This document shows positions 468 to 16,273 of a DNA stretch of 26,632 bases, piece after piece. The DNA is from a virus. The notes under the pieces are model-generated. The model was not told where the DNA came from. It worked only from the letters and a program-made list of their open reading frames with translations, and ran no database searches. Each line of letters starts with the position of its first letter. The stretch's first letter is position 1. The DNA lies in IMG/VR virus record IMGVR_UViG_3300020205_002267, positions 1 to 26,632 of that record. One strand, 5' to 3'. The position numbers and the translations under genes are program-made.

Positions 468-512
468 GTGGGGCCTCACCCGAGCACCCCACGTTACTGT
501 TTATTAAACAGT
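468..512 (-). promoter_or_regulatory. Two inverted repeats between dnaK and hsp20
   Basis: The first is GTGGGG/CCCCAC (468-473 with 487-492, 13-nt loop). The second is the near-perfect palindrome ACTGTTTAATAAACAGT (496-512), which includes the dnaK stop codon. Neither is followed by a clear U-run, so they are more likely RNA processing or stability hairpins, or a weak attenuator, than a strong terminator. Confidence 0.5.
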
Positions 513-2375
513 TTCTTTAAACTCAGCATTAACAGTTTCTGGTTCACCTGTTTGTGGCTGAGGTTGTGCTTTGGCTTCCATTAATGGCTGTGCCGCGGCA
601 AACAAGTCACTGACTTTCTGCGTGATAGCTTCTTTGTCTGTGCCCTTGACTGCTTCGTCAACTTCTGTAGCGGCCGCTTCGATAGCAGTTACTTGTTCAG
701 CTGTTAACTTGTCTTTATGTTCTTCTAGATCCTTACGGACTTCGTGAACTTGTGCTTCTGCTCCATTACGTGCAGTCACTAGTTCCACAGTCTTCTTATC
801 TTCTTCGGCATTGGCTTCGGCATCTTGTACCATCTGTTGGATCTCTGCATCGCTTAGTCCACTGTTGGCTTTGATAGTGATCTTATTTTCTTTGCCAGTG
901 TTTTTATCCTTGGCACTTACGTTAAGAATACCGTTTGCGTCGATATCAAGTGTGACTTCAATCTGTGGAGCGCCACGGCGAGCAGGTGCAATACCTTCTA
1001 AGTTAAACTCGCCTAGTAGTTTGTTGTACTGTGCAAGTTCACGTTCACCTTGGCTAACTTTAATAGTTACCGCAGGTTGGTTATCTTCTGCTGTTGAAAA
1101 CACTTGACTGTGCTTGGTTGGGATAGTTGTGTTCTTTTGAATCAACTTGGCGAACACTCCGCCCATTGTTTCAATGCCTAATGATAGAGGTGTTACGTCA
1201 AGCAACAGCACGTCATTACGGTCACCTGCTAGCACAGCACCTTGAATGGCCGCACCCGCCGCAACTGCTTCGTCTGGGTTGACATCTTTACGTGGAGCCT
1301 TACCGAATAGTTTCTCTACTGTTTCCTGTACTTTAGGCATACGTGTCATACCACCAACAAGAATAACTTCGTCGATGTCTGCAATGCTAACACCTGCATC
1401 TTTAATAGCAGTTTGGCATGGGCCAACTGAACGCTGAATCAGTTCTTCAACTAGACTTTCTAGTTTACTGCGGCTGATAGTAATGTTCATGTGTTTTGGG
1501 CCACTTGCATCTGCTGTGATGTATGGCAAGTTAACACTAGTACTGGCACTGCTTGACAGTTCAATCTTGGCTTTTTCAGCGGCTTCTTTTAGACGTTGTA
1601 GAGAAAGGATGTCATTCTTAAGATCAACTCCACTTTCTTTCTTGAACTCATCTACTAAAAAGTCCATGATGCGTTGATCAAAGTCTTCACCACCTAGAAA
1701 TGTATCTCCGTTAGTGCTCAGTACTTCGATTTGTTTATCGCCTTCCACATTTGCAATTTCAATGATTGATACGTCGAATGTACCACCACCAAGATCGTAA
1801 ACAGCAATTTTCCTGTCTCTTTTATCAGCTTTATCAACACCATAAGCAAGAGCTGCCGCAGTAGGCTCGTTAATAATACGAAGTACTTCCAAGCCTGCGA
1901 TTTTTCCAGCGTCTTTAGTAGCCTGTCTTTGGCTGTCGTTAAAGTAAGCCGGTACTGTGATAACTGCTTGAGTAACTGTTGTACCAAGATAATCCTCCGC
2001 TGTCTTTTTCATTTTACGTAGCACTTCTGCAGAAATCTGTGGAGGTGCTAGTTTGTCGCCATTTACTTCAACCCATGCATCACCGTTGTCGGCTTTGACA
2101 ATAGAATAAGGCATCAAGTCGATGTCTTTTTGCACAGCCTGTTCATCAAACTTACGTCCAATTAAACGCTTTGCCGCATAGATTGTATTTTTGGGATTTG
2201 TTACTGCTTGACGCTTTGCGCTTGCGCCTACTAGGATTTCGTTGTTAGCGTATGCAACAATACTAGGTGTAGTACGTGCGCCTTCGCTGTTTTCGATTAC
2301 CTTTGTGACTCCATTTTCAATAATGGATACGCATGAATTTGTTGTACCTAAATCGATACCGATGACTTTGCTCAT
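504..2375 (-). CDS. dnaK: Molecular chaperone DnaK (Hsp70)
   Basis: Complete 623-aa Hsp70. The N-terminal ATPase domain (about 1-385) shows [10 protein letters not shown] at residues 6-15, the [17 protein letters not shown] block, [21 protein letters not shown] and LVGGMTRMP. The interdomain linker DVLLLDV leads into the substrate-binding domain with TPLSLGIET and an intact helical lid. The C-terminus ends in EFKETV instead of the usual EEVKD-type tail. It is a true DnaK rather than HscA by its linker and length (about 620-640 aa is normal). The start is supported by TTAAGGAG upstream. DnaK refolds proteins with host DnaJ and GrpE, neither of which is encoded here. Sequence style is betaproteobacterial. 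Full-length DnaK is uncommon in phages, and pairing with Hsp20 suggests control of folding in late infection. Confidence 0.97.
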
Positions 2376-7158: not shown

Positions 7159-7554
7159 TTATCTACGCATTTTGCTGATATCAATGGCTTCCTCGTCTGA
7201 GAAAACAGGCACTGCATTGCTTTTATGCATGGTTGCAATACCCTTTACTTTGGTACCAGTATAAACCTTGGCTGGTTTAAGGGTAGCATTACCCAGACCA
7301 GTATCTACACTTTTAATATGGGCAGTAGTATTACGCCCTTGAGGAATAGTTAACGAGTATTTGGTGCTCAATAGCTCTGTTGATGCCATTGCTCGTTTAC
7401 GTTTCTTTTCCTCTAACTCTATACCTTGCCTTTTGAGCAGGTCTTTCCACGATTCATCCAATTGTTCTGCCTTTCGTTTTGCCTCGGCTGAAGCAAACTT
7501 CTTTTTGCCTTTCTTTTTGCCTGTGGTACTTAGCCACGGACCTTCCAAATGCAT
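7159..7554 (-). CDS. Basic phage protein beginning GPWLSTTGKKKGKKK
   Basis: 131-aa lysine-rich protein. The N-terminus (MHLEGPWLSTTGKKKGKKKF, then SAEAKRKAEQLDESWKDL) is a pattern I have seen in many phage hypothetical proteins, but I know no function. The middle is helical and charged; the C-terminal part is Thr-rich with possible strands. The ATG giving MHLEGPW was chosen from this recognised N-terminus. GGAG lies 13 nt upstream, so a TTG two codons earlier, or a GTG further upstream at 7584, are alternatives. It is transcribed from the consensus sigma70 promoter at 7594-7622, so early expression is likely. Confidence 0.75.
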   Translation of the reverse strand: MHLEGPWLSTTGKKKGKKKFASAEAKRKAEQLDESWKDLLKRQGIELEEKKRKRAMASTELLSTKYSLTIPQGRNTTAHIKSVDTGLGNATLKPAKVYTGTKVKGIATMHKSNAVPVFSDEEAIDISKMRR

Positions 7555-7593
7555 ACTCAAAATATTTCTCCAAAAGTTAAACACATAAGCACT

Positions 7594-7622
7594 ATTATAT
7601 AGGCTTTTTACTAACTTGTCAA
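7594..7622 (-). promoter_or_regulatory. Consensus sigma70 promoter
   Basis: TTGACA, 17 nt, TATAAT on the minus strand, in the gap between iscA and the basic 131-aa protein gene. Both hexamers match the consensus fully. Confidence 0.88.
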
Positions 7623-7632
7623 CTTTTTTGGT

Positions 7633-7953
7633 TTAGACGCGAAACGACTCACCACACCCGCAACGATCGCGTTCATTTGGGTTGGCAAATTCAAAACCCT
7701 CATTGAGTCCATTGCGAACCCAATCTACTTCTAGTCCTGATACATAGGCAAGACTCTTTGGATCAACGAATAACTTACAGCCCTTTGATTCAAAACATTC
7801 ATCTTCTGGATTTACGTTATCAACATACTCGAGTACATAAGCCAATCCACTACATCCGGTGGTTCTTACGCCGACTCTCAATCCGAGCCCTTTGCCCCTA
7901 CGCTCTAACTGGCGTTGAACTTTTACTGCCGCGTGATCAGTTAACGATATCAT
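7633..7953 (-). CDS. iscA: Iron-sulphur assembly protein IscA
   Basis: 106-aa A-type iron-sulphur carrier. The three conserved cysteines are present: C34 in TTGCSGLAY and C98/C100 in [19 protein letters not shown] and [10 protein letters not shown] are IscA-type blocks that separate it from ErpA, and the CGCGESFRV end is typical of betaproteobacterial IscA. IscA receives or delivers Fe-S clusters or iron after assembly on IscU. It overlaps the upstream iscU by 17 nt and is the last gene of the cassette that starts at the promoter 9858-9886. No IscS, HscB, HscA or ferredoxin gene is seen, so sulphur and chaperone functions must come from the host. Confidence 0.93.
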
Positions 7954-8332
7954 GCTGTTTGGCCTTATAGTCTGCTACTGCGGCTTTTATTGCGTCTTCG
8001 GCAAGAATTGAACAATGGATCTTAACTGGCGGTAGGGCTAGTTCTTCGGCAATTTCGGAATTTTTAAGCTCACTGGCTTTGTCGATGTGCATACCCTTGA
8101 CCCACTCTGTAACGAGGCTCGAGCTCGCGATAGCCGATCCGCAGCCATACGTTTTAAATTTTGCATCTGTAATAATACCTGTATCATTGTCCACCTTTAT
8201 CTGTAATTTCATTACGTCTCCGCAAGCAGGAGCTCCGACCATACCTGTACCAATGCCGTCTTCATCTTTACCAAATGATCCCACATTACGCGGATTCTCA
8301 TAGTGGTCTATTACTTTATCGCTGTATGCCAT
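7937..8332 (-). CDS. iscU: Iron-sulphur scaffold protein IscU
   Basis: 131-aa scaffold protein on which Fe-S clusters are built. Cluster ligands C37, C64 and C107 (ACGD, YGCGS, HCSIL) and D39 are present, and so is the LPPVK motif (about 100-104) that HscA recognises, so it should work with the host ISC machinery. Length matches bacterial IscU (about 128 aa). The ATG giving [18 protein letters not shown] was chosen because AAGGAAG lies just upstream and bacterial IscU begins this way. It starts 1 nt after the superoxide dismutase stop codon. Sequence style is Burkholderiales-like, which suggests recent host origin. Confidence 0.95.
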
Positions 8333-8333
8333 T

Positions 8334-8894
8334 TTATCTTCCTTGTAATCGGTCATTTACGACTGACCAATCGATAATTCGCCAAATATTTTCTAAATAC
8401 TTGGCTTTATTTTGTTGATAGTCTAATGCCCACGCATGTTCCCATGCATCTATCAATAGAGCAATAGTCATGCCCTTTGTGTATTCGTGATTATGTATTG
8501 TATGTAACTTGCCACCTGGATCCATGTAAATCCAATTTGATCCTTGCGCGGCCATAAATTCTTTTTCTACTGCTTCTTTAAACTTGTCAAAGCTACCATA
8601 GGCCGCATCGATAAGTTCTGCACTATCGCCTGCGGGCTTGTTTGCGGCTCTTGCAGGAGTAAGTCCTGCAAAGAACAAGTTATGCAGTACTGCGCCGCCG
8701 TAGTTAAACTTTGAGTCACCTTCACCTTTATTGTATCTTTCAAAATACTTTGCGGCCAAACCGTCAAAGTGATAGTTAAGAGTTGCTTCACTCATAACAG
8801 GATCTAACTCGTTCTTATCAAACTTTAATTTGCTTTGAACTAGTTCTCTGCCGTCAGCATCCTCTTTAAGATACTTAATAAAGTGCATGGTCAT
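8334..8894 (-). CDS. Superoxide dismutase, Fe/Mn family
   Basis: 186-aa member of the Fe/Mn superoxide dismutase family, which converts superoxide to oxygen and peroxide. The four metal ligands are recognisable: H42 (YHFDGLAAKY), H71 (GGAVLHNLFF), D149 and H153 (DAWEH). The usual tail YLENIWRIIDW is present. The residue four before H71 is Gly, as in the Mn-type, while the NHEY segment carries His where Mn-enzymes have Gln, so metal use cannot be assigned and may be cambialistic. There is no signal peptide, so it is cytoplasmic. Its ATG overlaps the erpA stop (ATGA). Phage-encoded Fe/Mn SOD is unusual, and its place between erpA and iscU suggests protection of iron enzymes. Confidence 0.9.
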   Translation of the reverse strand: MTMHFIKYLKEDADGRELVQSKLKFDKNELDPVMSEATLNYHFDGLAAKYFERYNKGEGDSKFNYGGAVLHNLFFAGLTPARAANKPAGDSAELIDAAYGSFDKFKEAVEKEFMAAQGSNWIYMDPGGKLHTIHNHEYTKGMTIALLIDAWEHAWALDYQQNKAKYLENIWRIIDWSVVNDRLQGR

Positions 8895-9196
8895 ACTGAG
8901 AAGCTACTTCCACATCCGCACTTGGTCTGTGCATTTGGATTATCAATGCTAAAATTCGTACCCATTAGATCTTCAGTAAAGTCTAATGTAGCACCTTGGA
9001 GATACTGTGCGCTCATAGAGTCAACGATGACTTTTCCAAACTCAAAATCATCTTCATTTTTAGTTTGATCAAAGTCAAATGCATAGCTAAATCCGCTACA
9101 ACCACCACCTTGAATAGCTATTCGTAGAAATGGCTCCTCATTTTCCACTAGAAGTTTTTCAATTTCTGCGTTTGCGTTTTCTGTAATTGTAATCAT
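8891..9196 (-). CDS. erpA: Iron-sulphur insertion protein ErpA-like
   Basis: 101-aa A-type carrier. Conserved cysteines are C33 in GGGCSGFSY and C93/C95 in the CGCGSSFSV end, which together with the NEDDFEFG and VDSMSAQYLQG blocks point to ErpA rather than IscA. ErpA delivers clusters to target apoproteins. CGGAG lies upstream of the ATG. It is the second A-type protein in this cassette, so assembly (IscU) and two delivery proteins are encoded together. A late-promoter-like GGTAAATA at 9214-9221 lies 17 nt upstream but overlaps the stop of the preceding small gene. Confidence 0.92.
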   Translation of the reverse strand: MITITENANAEIEKLLVENEEPFLRIAIQGGGCSGFSYAFDFDQTKNEDDFEFGKVIVDSMSAQYLQGATLDFTEDLMGTNFSIDNPNAQTKCGCGSSFSV

Positions 9197-11919: not shown

Positions 11920-12162
11920 TTAACCTTTTAATGTAGTAAAAAATGCTTCGTCTTTGTCTGCAAGTCCTTGAAAGCCGCCCGGCAATAGAACTCCGTCTTT
12001 AAAAATCTGGGGAACGCTACGTAGGCCTTGATCTACAAGGAACTCACGTGCTTCGGGTGCGTCTTCCATCTTAATCACTTTAAATGGAACACCTTTGCTT
12101 TCTAATAGTGCTTTTGCTCTGTCACAAAATGGACAGTTGTTTTTTGAATATACTGTAATCAT
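11920..12162 (-). CDS. grxC: Glutaredoxin
   Basis: 80-aa glutaredoxin with the active site CPFC (C10, C13), SVPQIF (cis-Pro loop) and LPGGFQGL near the C-terminus. It is full length for phage and bacterial glutaredoxins. It is the likely electron donor for the ribonucleotide reductase encoded just upstream, whose NrdA ends with a CEAC tail. It starts 8 nt after the nrdB stop with a weak AGAGA site. Some monothiol glutaredoxins carry Fe-S clusters, but the dithiol site points to the reductase role. Confidence 0.92.
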   Translation of the reverse strand: MITVYSKNNCPFCDRAKALLESKGVPFKVIKMEDAPEAREFLVDQGLRSVPQIFKDGVLLPGGFQGLADKDEAFFTTLKG

Positions 12163-12170
12163 ACTTTCTC

Positions 12171-13271
12171 TTATAATGATGGCAATGCGTCATAGTCTAA
12201 TGTTTCGCTCATTACACCAATGACATAGTTTGTTGATTCTGATTCTTGTAAGGCAGTTTGTTTCTTGCTTGTGTCAACGTGCTTGTTAAACCAAGGAATA
12301 GGAGTTGACTTAGGAGCACTGGCCTGATACTTGATGCCAATCTCTTTTAGTGCGCTAACTGCGGTGTAGTCTACAAAGTCACGAAGGATGTTTGCATTCA
12401 ACCCGATTACTGGACCCATCTTAAACAAGTATGTAGCCCAATCTTTTTCTTCACGAATAACATCCATATATAGTGCATATACTTCTTGTTCACATTCTAT
12501 TTTGGCAGCGGCAAAGCGTGGGTCTTCTTTAACCACTTGATTGATCAAATAAGCTGTCCAACCTTTATGCAGTAGTTCGTCTTGTAAGATCAACTGTATA
12601 ATGTTACCATTGCCCATAAAGATTTTGTTTTCTACCATTGCTAAACTTGTAGCAAACGATACCATGAAGCGGAACGCTTCTAAAGCATAGCTGGCATGTA
12701 GCGCCATGTAGATTGCTTTGATGTGTTCTTTCTCATTAACTGATCCGTCCATTTCTTTCATACAGTTAATTCGATGTAACCTTTCGTAGTGTTCTCCAAC
12801 ACTCGATGCCATGTCTACAATTTCTTTAGTGTCGTGGATAGTGTTGAACACATCCTTTGGTACGTTATAGATGTTACGAATAATATGGCTGTAGCTCTTT
12901 GAGTGAATGTTAGTTTCAAAGAATGTCCAGTTATATATCAATGCTTCTAGTTCAGGCAATGATACCACAGGCATAAAGATTTGGCTTGGGCCGCGTCCTT
13001 GTAAACTATCTAATGCTGTTTGACGTAGCAAGTTACTGGTGAAGATGTGTTTAACAGCATCACTAGCATCTTTGAAGTCGTTACTATCTTTAGTAAGACT
13101 AATCTCTTCTGGTTGCCAAAAGAAGCCACGTGCAGTTGCTTCAAAGTCTGCAATCTTCTTGTACTTAACTTCTTCAAAACGTTGAATAGTAACTGGGCCA
13201 GCTGGGTCCAGAAACATCTTACGATTAAGATAGTCTGTCTTTGTGTTTAAGTTATATTGTTGTTTGCTCAT
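12171..13271 (-). CDS. nrdB: Ribonucleotide reductase class Ia beta subunit
   Basis: 366-aa di-iron/tyrosyl radical subunit. The ligands read D88 (ALDSLQGR), E119 and H123 (FETNIH), E198 (ALEAFRFMVSF), E232 and H235 (DELLH), with radical Tyr at Y127 (SKSYSHI). E119 and H123 are four residues apart, one more than the E-x-x-H of E. coli and T4 NrdB (ETIH), while the flanking spacings are kept. The codons GAA ACT AAC ATT CAC confirm this. AGGA lies upstream, and the ATG directly follows the aldolase-family stop (TAAATG). It acts with NrdA to make dNTPs for phage replication. Confidence 0.96.
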   Translation of the reverse strand: MSKQQYNLNTKTDYLNRKMFLDPAGPVTIQRFEEVKYKKIADFEATARGFFWQPEEISLTKDSNDFKDASDAVKHIFTSNLLRQTALDSLQGRGPSQIFMPVVSLPELEALIYNWTFFETNIHSKSYSHIIRNIYNVPKDVFNTIHDTKEIVDMASSVGEHYERLHRINCMKEMDGSVNEKEHIKAIYMALHASYALEAFRFMVSFATSLAMVENKIFMGNGNIIQLILQDELLHKGWTAYLINQVVKEDPRFAAAKIECEQEVYALYMDVIREEKDWATYLFKMGPVIGLNANILRDFVDYTAVSALKEIGIKYQASAPKSTPIPWFNKHVDTSKKQTALQESESTNYVIGVMSETLDYDALPSL

Positions 13272-13922
13272 TTAATATTTTCCTGATGCAAGTACTATCT
13301 TGCAAATGTGTTCTAGTCTTTCTATGTGTTCGTATGCTCGCCATGGACTTGTGTCAATAGCAACCACCCCGTGTCCTTTGATGCCTACAATATCGTAAGC
13401 AATATTTCCGTCTTTATCTAGCTGTAAATTCTCATGACAACGATCAGCAAGTTCTTGACTAATCGGAGCCACATCTCCTACATTAGGTGCTACCTTAGTA
13501 TATCGATTGAGTTCTGGAAAAGACTCACTGATAGTACTAAGTTCAATACCGGCATGCATGGCCGCAATACAGTAGGTCGGGTGTACATGGACTACAACAC
13601 GGACCTCACCTGTATGCTGACCCATTTCTTTTTGCAATCCAAAGTGTAACGGAAGTTCTCCACTAGGCTTTAGGTTCTTACTAATCTCAGTGTAGTCTAG
13701 TTCTACACTAGCATGATACCTAGTCGGTGGCTGATCGTAGTAGCCTGTTTCAATACCAATCTTCTTGAACTGATCAGGCTGTAGTGTTTGTTTACGTACA
13801 CCGCTGGGCGTGATGTAAAAGTGATCACGGTCATGATGTCGTATGCTGACATTACCATCACGACTAGTGATCCAGTTACGCTTATAAGCGTCTACCATTA
13901 TGTCACAGATTGTTTCTAACAT
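13272..13922 (-). CDS. Class II aldolase/adducin family protein
   Basis: 216-aa member of the class II aldolase family (fuculose-phosphate aldolase, ribulose-phosphate epimerase, MtnB dehydratase). Family blocks are GNVSIR (23-28), TPSGV (38-42), SGELPLH with E89, HVHPTY with zinc ligands H112 and H114, and GIKGHGVVA with H184. Zinc site and catalytic acid appear complete, so it should be active on a small phosphorylated sugar or thioribulose-type substrate. It lies between nrdA and nrdB, starting on the last base of the nrdA stop (TAATG) without its own ribosome binding site, so it is translated with the reductase. The substrate cannot be told from sequence. Confidence 0.85.
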   Translation of the reverse strand: MLETICDIMVDAYKRNWITSRDGNVSIRHHDRDHFYITPSGVRKQTLQPDQFKKIGIETGYYDQPPTRYHASVELDYTEISKNLKPSGELPLHFGLQKEMGQHTGEVRVVVHVHPTYCIAAMHAGIELSTISESFPELNRYTKVAPNVGDVAPISQELADRCHENLQLDKDGNIAYDIVGIKGHGVVAIDTSPWRAYEHIERLEHICKIVLASGKY

Positions 13923-16249
13923 TATAGTTTACAGGCTTCGCAGTCTTCTTCTTCAAAGTCAACTTCAACATAAGTTTGTGCAACACTCTGTACAAGTTCC
14001 TCTTTGGCCTTACTACCTGCTTTATTGATTAGGCTGTAGTAGAATGTTTTCAATCCCCAATAGTGAGCTTGCATTAGATTTTTTGCAATCAATGTGGTTG
14101 GCACCTTACGATCTGCAAAGTGTGCAGGATTGTAAAATGTGTTAGTACTAATACTTTGATCAACGTATGCGGCCAGTACTGCGGCAGTTTTTAAATAACC
14201 GTCACAGTCCTTTTGATCCCACATCATTTGATATTTGCTCTTGAGTTTATGATACTCAGGGACAACTTGGACAAAGGAACCTGCTTTGCTTTCCTTAACT
14301 GAAATAAGCGACATAGGCATTTCAATGCCATTAGTGCTATTAATAACAACACTAGAACTTTCAACAGGGGCAATAGCCATAAGTGTAGCATTTCTAACTC
14401 CATGCAATTTCATATTAACTCGTAATGTTTCCCAATCTAGTTCAGGTGTAAAGTCAGCAAGTTCGTTTGATCCTTTGGCACGTGTCTCCCAAGGAAAGAT
14501 GCCTTGTCCGTAGCGTGTCTTCTCACTATGTAAGCAAGCGCCACGTTCTTTGGCTAGTTCAACTGTTGCTTCTGTTAGATAATAGGCCTGATGTTCCATC
14601 CATGCCTTAACATCTTGTAAGGCATCTTTCTCCCCGTACTTCATGCCACGTTTAGCATGCCAATAGGCCAAGTTAGTAACGCCGATACCCAATGGCTGAA
14701 TCTCATCATTGCTTAGTTTACTCTGTATACTTAAGAAGTCTTGATAGTCAAGTATGTTGCATAGACTACGTTGTAAAATGCGGCAAGCACGGCGCATGTC
14801 TTCCGGATTCCGGAATGCTCCCCAGTTGATAGATCCTAATGTACATAACGCTATGCGACCTTCAGCGTCATCTAGACGTTTGAAAGATTTTGTGGGCAGT
14901 AGGATTTCACAACATAAGTTACTTTGATAGATAGTATGGTACTCTGGGTCGAACGGACCCTGGTTCATCACATTGTCAATGAACACTAGATAGATACGTC
15001 CTGTATCAGTACGTTCTTTCAGTATGCCTGACTTGAATACTTCTTCGGCTGACATTGTCTTTGTACGCAAATCTTTACGCTTTTCGTACTTGACATACAG
15101 CTCTTCAAAACGTTCAGTGTTTTTATAAAATGCTTCATACAAGTCAGGAACTTCGTTTGGATCAAAGAAAGTTATGTTTTCTTTGTTCTTAAATCTTCTC
15201 CAGAAGAAGGCACTAAGCACAACCCCATAATCCATATGACGGACTCGGGTTTCTTCTGTTCCTTGGTTGTTCTTAAGCACAATAAGGTCATCAAACTGAT
15301 GATGCCAAATAGGATAGAATACAGTAGCACTAGCATTACGAATGCCTCCTTGACTGCAACTACGTAGGTCTCCAAACCATTTCTTTAAAAAAGGTATCAT
15401 ACCTGTGTGCATGATCTCCCCACCTCTGATGGGACTACCTAATGGACGTAAGCGACCAATCTCCAAACCAATACCTGCACGTTTGCTAGCATACTTGGCC
15501 ATCATCTCACCTGAAGCAAAGATGCTGTCTAGGTCGTCGTCTGATCTGATGAGGACGCAACTTGAGAACTGCTTGGTAGGAGTCCCCAGGCCAGCAAGTA
15601 CAGGAGTAGCGAGAGTAAATAGACCGTCTGAAGCTGCCTGATAATATTCTTTGATAAATCGCATACGAGCTGTGTTAGGTTCTTCTTTGTGGAAGACTGT
15701 AGCGGCTGCGACAATGTAACGTACTTGAGGTGTTTCATAAATTTCCTTTGTGGCGCGATTACGCACTAGGTACTTTTCGATTAGTTGTTCAATGCTGGCG
15801 TATCCATACTCTTCATCTTTCTCATGATCCAGCATGTCATCCATTTTATTCCAATCTTCTTGTGTATACCATGTTAGTAGTTCTTGAGTATACAATCCGG
15901 TAGCCACATTCTTTTTAACTATTTCATAAAGGTGAGGAGGCTCATAACTGCCATAGACATCTTTACGTAGCATCGACAGTCGTTGTTTGCCTGCTACATA
16001 TTGATAGTTGGTGTGTCCAATATCGGGATTTGATTCTACATCGATTAGGTCCACAATAGCACGTAGAGTTATTTCGTCAATCTCTTGTGTTGTGATACCG
16101 TCATAAAAATGTGGCTGGGCTTTGATTTCGATCATACTCTGACTTACGTCAGCTATACCGCTACAAACCTTTGCAATCTGTGTCTGCCATTTTTCTATTG
16201 TTAGTGGCTCTTTTAGGCCACTTCGTTTTGTTACTGTTATTGTTGTCAT
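13922..16249 (-). CDS. nrdA: Ribonucleotide reductase class Ia alpha subunit
   Basis: 775-aa catalytic subunit. An ATP-cone (about 1-95) is followed by the R1 barrel: FSSCVLI (redox Cys), SNLCCEILLPTK carrying the Asn-Leu-Cys-x-Glu catalytic motif, ALCTLGSINW (second redox Cys), TFYYS (radical-transfer Tyr pair) and the C-terminal CEACKL redox pair. The ATG giving MTTITVTKRSG was chosen because GAGAGA lies just before it; a TTG five codons earlier is weaker. A sigma70 promoter at 16394-16422 inside the upstream gene probably drives nrdA, the aldolase-family gene, nrdB and glutaredoxin as one unit. A retained ATP-cone suggests allosteric activity control. Confidence 0.97.
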   Translation of the reverse strand: MTTITVTKRSGLKEPLTIEKWQTQIAKVCSGIADVSQSMIEIKAQPHFYDGITTQEIDEITLRAIVDLIDVESNPDIGHTNYQYVAGKQRLSMLRKDVYGSYEPPHLYEIVKKNVATGLYTQELLTWYTQEDWNKMDDMLDHEKDEEYGYASIEQLIEKYLVRNRATKEIYETPQVRYIVAAATVFHKEEPNTARMRFIKEYYQAASDGLFTLATPVLAGLGTPTKQFSSCVLIRSDDDLDSIFASGEMMAKYASKRAGIGLEIGRLRPLGSPIRGGEIMHTGMIPFLKKWFGDLRSCSQGGIRNASATVFYPIWHHQFDDLIVLKNNQGTEETRVRHMDYGVVLSAFFWRRFKNKENITFFDPNEVPDLYEAFYKNTERFEELYVKYEKRKDLRTKTMSAEEVFKSGILKERTDTGRIYLVFIDNVMNQGPFDPEYHTIYQSNLCCEILLPTKSFKRLDDAEGRIALCTLGSINWGAFRNPEDMRRACRILQRSLCNILDYQDFLSIQSKLSNDEIQPLGIGVTNLAYWHAKRGMKYGEKDALQDVKAWMEHQAYYLTEATVELAKERGACLHSEKTRYGQGIFPWETRAKGSNELADFTPELDWETLRVNMKLHGVRNATLMAIAPVESSSVVINSTNGIEMPMSLISVKESKAGSFVQVVPEYHKLKSKYQMMWDQKDCDGYLKTAAVLAAYVDQSISTNTFYNPAHFADRKVPTTLIAKNLMQAHYWGLKTFYYSLINKAGSKAKEELVQSVAQTYVEVDFEEEDCEACKL

Positions 16250-16273
16250 TAGTCTCTCTTGCAAAGTGTTGAA

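Follow-up and report, generated by a model that had tools for sequence, protein, structure and literature searches.

Why should a virus carry genes for building iron–sulfur (Fe-S) clusters next to a gene for a superoxide dismutase (SOD)? The question is posed by the IMG/VR virus record IMGVR_UViG_3300020205_002267, all 26,632 bases of which we analysed (hereafter, the window), and in which erpA-like, sod, iscU and iscA genes, in that order of transcription, form a packed unit on the minus strand at 7633–9196. A first reading of the sequence, made without database searches (the original prediction), had described the four genes as a phage cassette that would supply and protect iron cofactors by plugging into the iron–sulfur cluster (ISC) system of the host. 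We find that in many uncultured phages, known for the most part through environmental DNA, one SOD lineage pairs with ISC machinery or, more rarely, with that of the sulfur mobilization (SUF) system, and we consider it probable, though well short of certain, that the operon makes, moves and protects Fe-S clusters mainly for enzymes of the phage, the SOD and scaffold activities being predicted.

A four-gene unit that recurs in viral contigs

Scores against NCBIfam and Pfam models, the fold of the SOD and the phage genes on either side (Table 1) bore out the proposed identities of iscA, iscU, sod and erpA in a phage setting. The genes had also been described as one overlapping unit, which is correct for erpA and sod (4 bases shared) and for iscU and iscA (17 bases) but not, most likely, for sod and iscU. 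Because IscU relatives begin with MAYS or something similar and AAGGAAG precedes the ATG at 8332, the real iscU start is most likely at 8332, which would leave 1 base after the sod stop codon and no overlap between the two genes.

We scanned viral contigs with the SOD, which gave 91 loci with a relative, and with the IscU, which gave at least 598, and kept the best 80 loci of each scan. After dropping the window itself (L001) and four second copies (L082, L108, L120 and L150), 153 distinct IMG/VR loci remained, a set in which near-copies of a virus sampled more than once are kept and many loci are cut by contig ends, and in which we use 'iscA' and 'erpA' for the best match to one or the other of the window's two carriers. 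Both sod and iscU were present in 86 of the 153 loci (the window's own virus, L002, included), with sod upstream in all 86, and these loci encoded 58 unique SOD proteins falling into 33 clusters at 90% identity. The core of the set is sod-iscU-iscA, the arrangement found in 67 of these loci; the others read erpA-sod-iscU-iscA (9), sod-iscU-erpA-iscA (4), sod-erpA-iscU-iscA (3) or erpA-sod-iscU (1), or had a split iscU match (2). All four genes occurred in 16 of the 153. Elsewhere in the set we found iscU-iscA without sod (34 loci), iscU alone (13), sod alone (9), sod-erpA (6) and different patterns (5). Counted by scan, iscU was present in 64 of the best 80 SOD loci and SOD in 29 of the best 80 IscU loci. 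With the iscU start placed at M-x-YS, the distance between sod and iscU was readable for 77 of 83 neighbouring pairs (unreadable in 6): it did not exceed 2 bases (overlaps included) in 42, was between 88 and 132 bases in 30, and was larger in 5.

The genes around the cassette form two backbones. In backbone I, that of the window, nrdA-aldolase-nrdB-grx come before the cassette and genes for a cell-wall hydrolase, DnaK and Hsp20 come after it; in the second, genes for PTPS, a KdsA-like protein, a glycosyltransferase-like protein (this and KdsA named by eye) and UvdE precede it and a gene for a 2468-amino-acid protein follows. The cassette is an auxiliary gene set borne by viruses, recurring among phage genes in several contigs.

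Some loci were arranged differently. Seven closely alike phage loci (L067–L073) had a SOD of 55–56% identity and no iscU that we could find, and in L071 a thioredoxin-like open reading frame (ORF; 1832–2110, named by eye) followed the SOD gene. At L104:1710–3038 the order was carrier-iscU-carrier-carrier, that is, three A-type carriers and one IscU, with no SOD found. A P-loop kinase-like gene, matching the APS-kinase family of Pfam, lay between iscU and the carrier at L094:10892–11698, and ORFs related to it lay within 4 kb on either side of the cassette in L083, L102, L124 and L134.

A phage lineage of superoxide dismutase

The window SOD passed no NCBIfam SOD model, and in Pfam its C-terminal domain (PF02777) passed while its N-terminal domain (PF00081) scored 24.9 bits against a cut-off of 27, which is a score threshold and not a functionally required residue. 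The AlphaFold model, made from 31 sequences, had a mean predicted local distance difference test score of 90.1, with a loop of four residues joining the first two helices. VIA-align superposed it on 9twc_A over 169 residues (Z 24.5, root-mean-square deviation 1.7), and in a structure search with it 265 of 608 chains reached Z ≥ 8, the 50 best shown being Fe/Mn SODs at Z of about 24. Its top match in a library of viral structures was the SOD of an uncultured Caudovirales phage (49% identity). H42, H71, D149 and H153, which we equated by eye with the known metal ligands in an alignment to the SOD of Bacteroides fragilis, were invariant in 68 of 68 unique SOD sequences, as were Y50, L46 and L147. 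The modelled protein thus presents the Fe/Mn-SOD fold together with all four metal ligands, of which three are His and one is Asp. N135 and H136 were also invariant, and their place at the C-terminal water-coordinating site was judged by eye, the alignment being gapped there.

The subfamilies SodFM1–5 have been defined, in the accessible part of PMC10172142, by the motif HXXXHH (with its last His lost in SodFM4) plus a water-coordinating Gln or His, and in the same source a C-terminal His goes with a preference for Fe in 9 of 13 enzymes; its main text contains none of the words 'virus', 'viral' and 'phage'. The fold and the four metal ligands of SodFM1–5 are common to the phage SOD, whose H136 may stand at the place of the C-terminal water-coordinating His found in most SodFM3 and SodFM4 proteins. 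It differs from SodFM1–5 in reading HxxxLA in place of the motif, in the four-residue interhelix loop of its model and in standing on a separate branch. As to metal use, the sequence hints weakly at Fe or at mixed use.

That branch was seen in a quick tree, in which a single split (Shimodaira–Hasegawa-like approximate likelihood ratio test, 100) parted 44 phage SOD rows from 37 cellular rows, the cellular sample being biased in that it was picked by phage-like peptide patterns with 80 of 129 relatives kept. Two jumbo-phage SODs in the tree had very long branches and are unsurely placed. We also ran a profile of the phage SODs against 274 genomes from the class to which G025 belongs, a Methylophilaceae genome whose bin contains a probable phage contig discussed below. 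That contig aside, the maximum was 110.7 bits, compared with 148.3 bits for the partial SOD on it and 275.9 bits for the SOD of viral locus L265 (local search, same alignment). Phylogeny had been put forward as a way to the donor: it parted the SOD from the cellular rows, but in the genomes sampled we found no close cellular relative of the SOD lineage and no donor for it.

A distant relative of the SOD is encoded by Pseudomonas phage Callisto (L162), where its gene lies beside ibpB and clpS, and by Vibrio phage 2.275.O (L161). MW462191, a freshwater 'Bacteriophage sp.' record, was not counted as a SOD-bearing phage, its SOD lying among bacterial-looking genes.

The same lineage beside SUF genes

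In one variant, L033, SufC-, SufD- and SufS-like genes come before SOD, making a hybrid sufC-sufD-sufS-sod-erpA-iscU-iscA. By clustering, L024 carries the same gene set and L025 the part that lies on its contig. SufC (203.0 bits, cut-off 212.8), SufD and SufS were the best NCBIfam fits for the L033 proteins; since all three fell below the cut-off, we read them as divergent or short members of their families. L265 has the second backbone with SUF replacing ISC, in the order UvdE-sod-sufB-C-D-S-E-T-carrier. In L171, SOD stands directly before SufB and is followed by SufC, a class-V aminotransferase (its first piece tested, its second, in another frame, assigned by eye), SufE, a Grx4-type glutaredoxin, a DUF59/SufT-type protein and a carrier; the SOD frame matches positions 64–185 only. 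This locus lies on the 89.5-kb contig (G025:C2) of the Methylophilaceae bin, which is probably phage or prophage because it bears a large terminase.

A scan with the L171 SufB gave 40 viral loci, or 41 with L171 itself, and sufB, sufC and sufS matches occurred together in 26 of the 41 (some at <30% identity). Within the stretches fetched, SOD was found in 2 of the 41 (L265 and L171) and IscU in none. The SOD lineage therefore pairs with ISC or, more rarely, SUF machinery, and most SUF loci are without it. Near-complete SUF operons on phage contigs were seen among L251–L290 and L171, often with an Hsp20-like match upstream of sufB.

Scaffold, carriers and the parts probably left to the host

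IscU, IscA and ErpA of the window all passed curated NCBIfam cut-offs. In IscU, C45, D47, C72 and C115, which we take to be the active-site positions, and the LPPVK motif, which presumably serves chaperone recognition, were invariant in 14 of 14 aligned rows, so that the predicted retention of LPPVK stands. C34, C98 and C100 were invariant in 15 of 15 aligned A-type carriers, in keeping with C-x(about 63)-CGC, which we assume to be the cysteine motif of this family.

IscS, HscB/HscA and ferredoxin had been called absent. The window's virus is represented more fully by an IMG/VR contig of 72,407 bases (L002, or G001), in which all 19 window proteins searched for are present at 100% identity. 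On this contig, an incomplete genome, we matched neither a class-V aminotransferase of the IscS/SufS kind (PF00266) nor a J-domain (PF00226); the absence of ferredoxin is left as predicted, neither it nor the HscB C-terminal domain having been searched for there. The window's HSP70 was rejected as a candidate HscA: NCBIfam names it DnaK, over the cut-off, and the HscA model fell below its cut-off. The contig thus lacks a complete ISC system as searched, with no IscS-kind or J-domain match and an HSP70 that is DnaK, and the claim that the unit would need the host's desulfurase agrees with this, some relatives bringing a SufS-like gene of their own. Across 24 cassette or iscU contigs, HSP70 was over the cut-off in 8, J-domains were present in 11, and a class-V aminotransferase was over the cut-off in 1 (some contigs may be fragments), so most of these phages would need a host desulfurase. 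The phage DnaK might conceivably act as a chaperone for IscU.

Signs of exchange within the unit

Comparing L002 with L003, L004 and L005, we found ratios of nonsynonymous to synonymous divergence (dN/dS) of 0.00–0.02 for erpA, 0.06–0.09 for sod, 0.04–0.07 for iscU and 0.02–0.04 for iscA, which shows that all four genes are under purifying selection (we left out iscU ratios with L061, L064 and L066, as well as any other pair whose dS was undefined or saturated). In the same comparisons dS was 0.23–0.41 in erpA and sod and 0.84–1.60 in iscU and iscA; between L003 and L005 it was 0.15–0.34 across all four genes. This rise at the sod/iscU junction suggests that the iscU-iscA half was swapped in by recombination in the window's lineage. 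IscU was up to 85% identical to a cellular IscU (143 genomes), and in the IscU tree phage and cell rows were mixed and poorly resolved (2 of 47 inner branches starred), so that no IscU donor could be named from it. The SOD looks like an old phage lineage and the Fe-S genes like ones more recently shared with cells.

Radical-SAM genes as possible clients

If the phage builds clusters, what might use them? We searched chosen contigs for radical S-adenosylmethionine (radical-SAM) genes and found 164 matches in 2.85 Mb of cassette or iscU contigs, 18 of the 24 being positive (14 of 19 with sod and 4 of 5 without). Sixteen SUF contigs gave 99 matches in 2.25 Mb (14 of 16 positive), and two contigs with sod-carrier loci gave 12 in 0.16 Mb. 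By comparison, nine named control phages gave 8 matches in 2.30 Mb (4 of 9 positive), C48C1 gave 1, and Callisto and Vibrio phage 2.275.O gave 0. The 24 contigs differed from these 12 named phages with a Mann-Whitney p of 0.0008, a value to be read with the knowledge that the contigs are related, the controls were hand-picked and C48C1, among the 12, itself has IscU. The radical-SAM genes on cassette contigs mean that phage-borne Fe-S clients exist.

On the 72-kb contig, 8 radical-SAM matches cluster at 51–67 kb, outside the window (L165, L311 and L312 were noted as well). Ten ORFs from this region, with 6 of the 8 matches among them, were put to Pfam: 6 were radical-SAM, 1 matched PF13884 (chaperone of endosialidase) and 3 had no match.

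What the operon probably does

Under the reading we favour, sulfur from the host desulfurase would pass to IscU, which would assemble clusters; the IscA- and ErpA-type carriers would hand them to target proteins; and the SOD would clear superoxide that otherwise strips [4Fe-4S] clusters. The chief customers would probably be Fe-S enzymes that the phage itself encodes, radical-SAM proteins foremost, made in a cell whose own cluster supply may be limited, and host enzymes would benefit too. An active SOD, parts that cooperate with the host's IscS and chaperones, a shared transcript for the genes and phage enzymes as customers are all inferred here. The link between supply and protection, already drawn in the original prediction, gains strength from the way one SOD lineage turns up again and again with ISC genes and, less often, with SUF genes.

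Several observations weigh against this reading. No SOD was seen in 51 of the best 80 IscU loci (many on cut contigs), nor in 39 of the 41 SufB loci within the stretches fetched, so SOD is optional; 88–132 bases separate sod and iscU in 30 of 77 loci, so a single transcript is not required everywhere. The SOD genes of Callisto and Vibrio phage 2.275.O have no annotated gene for Fe-S assembly within 5 kb. In the SOD itself the HXXXHH motif is missing, reading H42-x-x-x-L46-A47 with Leu at the second motif His in the alignment to the B. fragilis enzyme. The radical-SAM enrichment is indicative only, the controls being hand-picked and the cassette contigs kin (16 different SODs among 19); the control phage KVP40 alone holds 5 matches, and none was found on 5 of the 19 sod-bearing contigs or on the contig of L265.

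The most serious competitor, though one we doubt, is that the cassette sustains host respiration and Fe-S enzymes and eases oxidative stress without being tied specifically to phage enzymes. Earlier authors viewed phage Fe-S genes and SODs as help to the host (accessible parts of PMC8940887, PMC6802176 and PMC12542629), IscU is close to its cellular counterparts, and 6 of the 24 contigs with the cassette or iscU, all of them <90 kb, had no radical-SAM match; what tells against it is the abundance of radical-SAM genes on most of the tested contigs with the cassette or SUF genes and their scarcity in most of the controls. That sod and isc genes are mere neighbours, gathered in one hotspot for unrelated purposes, strikes us as improbable. 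The parts have been exchanged separately, as the divergent dS values indicate, 34 of the 153 loci have iscU and a carrier but lack sod, and the SODs of Callisto and 2.275.O have no Fe-S neighbours; yet the order is the same over 33 SOD clusters, 42 of 77 loci leave no more than 2 bases between sod and iscU, and the same SOD lineage stands with SUF genes.

A unit without a desulfurase whose IscU retains LPPVK might alternatively interfere with the host, its IscU and carriers binding host IscS, iron or IscR and so disturbing Fe-S balance or defence. We give this very little credence: the cluster-binding cysteines are retained, there are two carriers, and three relatives have a SufS-like desulfurase gene, all of which fits supply better. 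Host contamination or a chimeric contig, the finding that was to overturn the original prediction, we rejected and regard as having next to no chance of being right. IscU and DnaK are host-like and the 72-kb contig gave no terminase match, but the region recurs amid phage genes in many contigs and in two backbones, which speaks against chance or chimera; three other contigs with the cassette (353, 278 and 199 kb) bear a large terminase; and nothing cellular in our samples is closely related to the SOD lineage.

A bolder version of our preferred reading, in which the operon supplies and protects clusters for phage enzymes, seems to us unlikely as a whole but worth stating. The virus-only SOD lineage would be a working part of phage Fe-S assembly and no bystander, staying in the operon or at its head while ISC and SUF are swapped; its altered active site, in which Leu replaces the second His of the motif and the helical hairpin is shortened, might adapt it to guarding or feeding the scaffold; and the whole would amount to an oxygen-proof cofactor factory for phage radical-SAM arrays.

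These results suggest that large aquatic phages, beyond borrowing Fe-S genes one at a time, carry linked sets of them, some nearly amounting to whole SUF operons and some including a protective enzyme, and they lead to the prediction that the success of phages in oxygenated water hinges on cofactor supply to phage enzymes. They also add a deep SOD branch and a simple natural case linking superoxide defence with Fe-S assembly, an old idea.

The surrounding window

Neighbours of the cassette in the window matched a baseplate hub/tail lysozyme, a virion structural protein, an exonuclease, both ribonucleotide reductase subunits, glutaredoxin and MazG, and, weakly (1.7e-4), a tail spike. The gene order of the nrdB/aldolase-like/nrdA block is kept in close backbone I relatives. 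Hsp20 (10–435) adjoins DnaK in the window and likewise in longer backbone I relatives. A large terminase was matched in 4 of 12 records, namely the three cassette contigs named above and the genome of L171, and the terminase model tested had no match on the 72-kb contig.

Scanning the region for sigma-70 sites gave 4, compared with 4.7 expected from shuffles, and a single one reached 12/12 (Table 1); the scan gave no support for sigma-70-like sites inside the erpA-sod-iscU-iscA unit. The full-consensus site possibly marks the end of the unit, and may serve the next gene, perhaps as a strong early promoter.

Table 1. Features of the window, with coordinates and supporting matches.
Feature	Position	Strand	Evidence
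ErpA-type A-type carrier, first gene of the unit	8891–9196	-	PF01521 7.6e-18; NF010147 122.2 bits, cut-off 117
Fe/Mn-family superoxide dismutase, phage lineage	8334–8894	-	PF02777 6e-22; structural model
IscU scaffold	7937–8332 (ORF opens 8356)	-	PF01592 1.2e-54; TIGR01999 218.7 bits, cut-off 192.4
IscA-type A-type carrier	7633–7953	-	PF01521 1.1e-17; TIGR02011 153.3 bits, cut-off 150.6
Sigma-70 promoter-like site, TTGACA-17-TATAAT	7594–7622	-	12/12 consensus; just after iscA, facing next gene 7159–7584
DnaK	504–2375	-	PF00012 5e-257; NCBIfam DnaK
Glutaredoxin	11920–12162	-	PF00462 7.2e-18
nrdB, class II aldolase-like, nrdA	12171–16264	-	PF00268 3.3e-41; PF00596 4.9e-28; PHROG 84

Comparison with known systems

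IscU and A-type carriers on the one hand, and SOD on the other, have each already been reported separately in phages. According to the accessible text of PMC5332604 (Nishimura et al. 2017), marine viral genomes include A-type carriers (14) and IscU (6), and one genome has 12 radical-SAM genes; these large T4-like phages resemble ours in combining IscU and A-type carriers with glutaredoxin and many radical-SAM genes, and differ in that 'superoxide' appears 0 times in the main text and no SUF operon is described there. HMO-2011-type phages, a different phage group, share iscU and erpA, with no SOD mentioned in the part of PMC9038755 available. Viromes with nifU or sufE are described in the accessible portions of PMC8940887 and PMC7785012. 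SODs appear among the oxidative-stress genes of freshwater phages (PMC6802176), and nifU and an Fe/Mn SOD as separate viral genes of a Microcystis bloom (PMC12542629); the two sources, as far as available, thus document SOD in freshwater phages and both kinds of gene in one virome, and describe no operon joining SOD to Fe-S assembly.

We found no paper joining iscU and superoxide dismutase in phages, supplementary tables, most subscription papers and preprints lying outside our coverage. The exact combination had been thought undescribed, and no such operon turned up in the literature, but the set itself is common, as the counts above attest. What is new, as far as the literature found shows, is that a single phage SOD lineage is tied to ISC and SUF genes at the level of the operon, and how widely this is so.

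'Acinetobacter phage MD-2021a' was set aside as a phage precedent, its iscU sitting in an ordinary bacterial isc operon, and serves as a bacterial comparison only. The bacterial ISC operon, annotated in L160 as iscR-iscS-iscU-iscA-hscB-hscA-fdx, has iscU followed by iscA, as the phage unit does. Genes of the iscS and hscB kinds were not found on the 72-kb contig as tested, and to the shared pair the phage unit adds SOD and ErpA.

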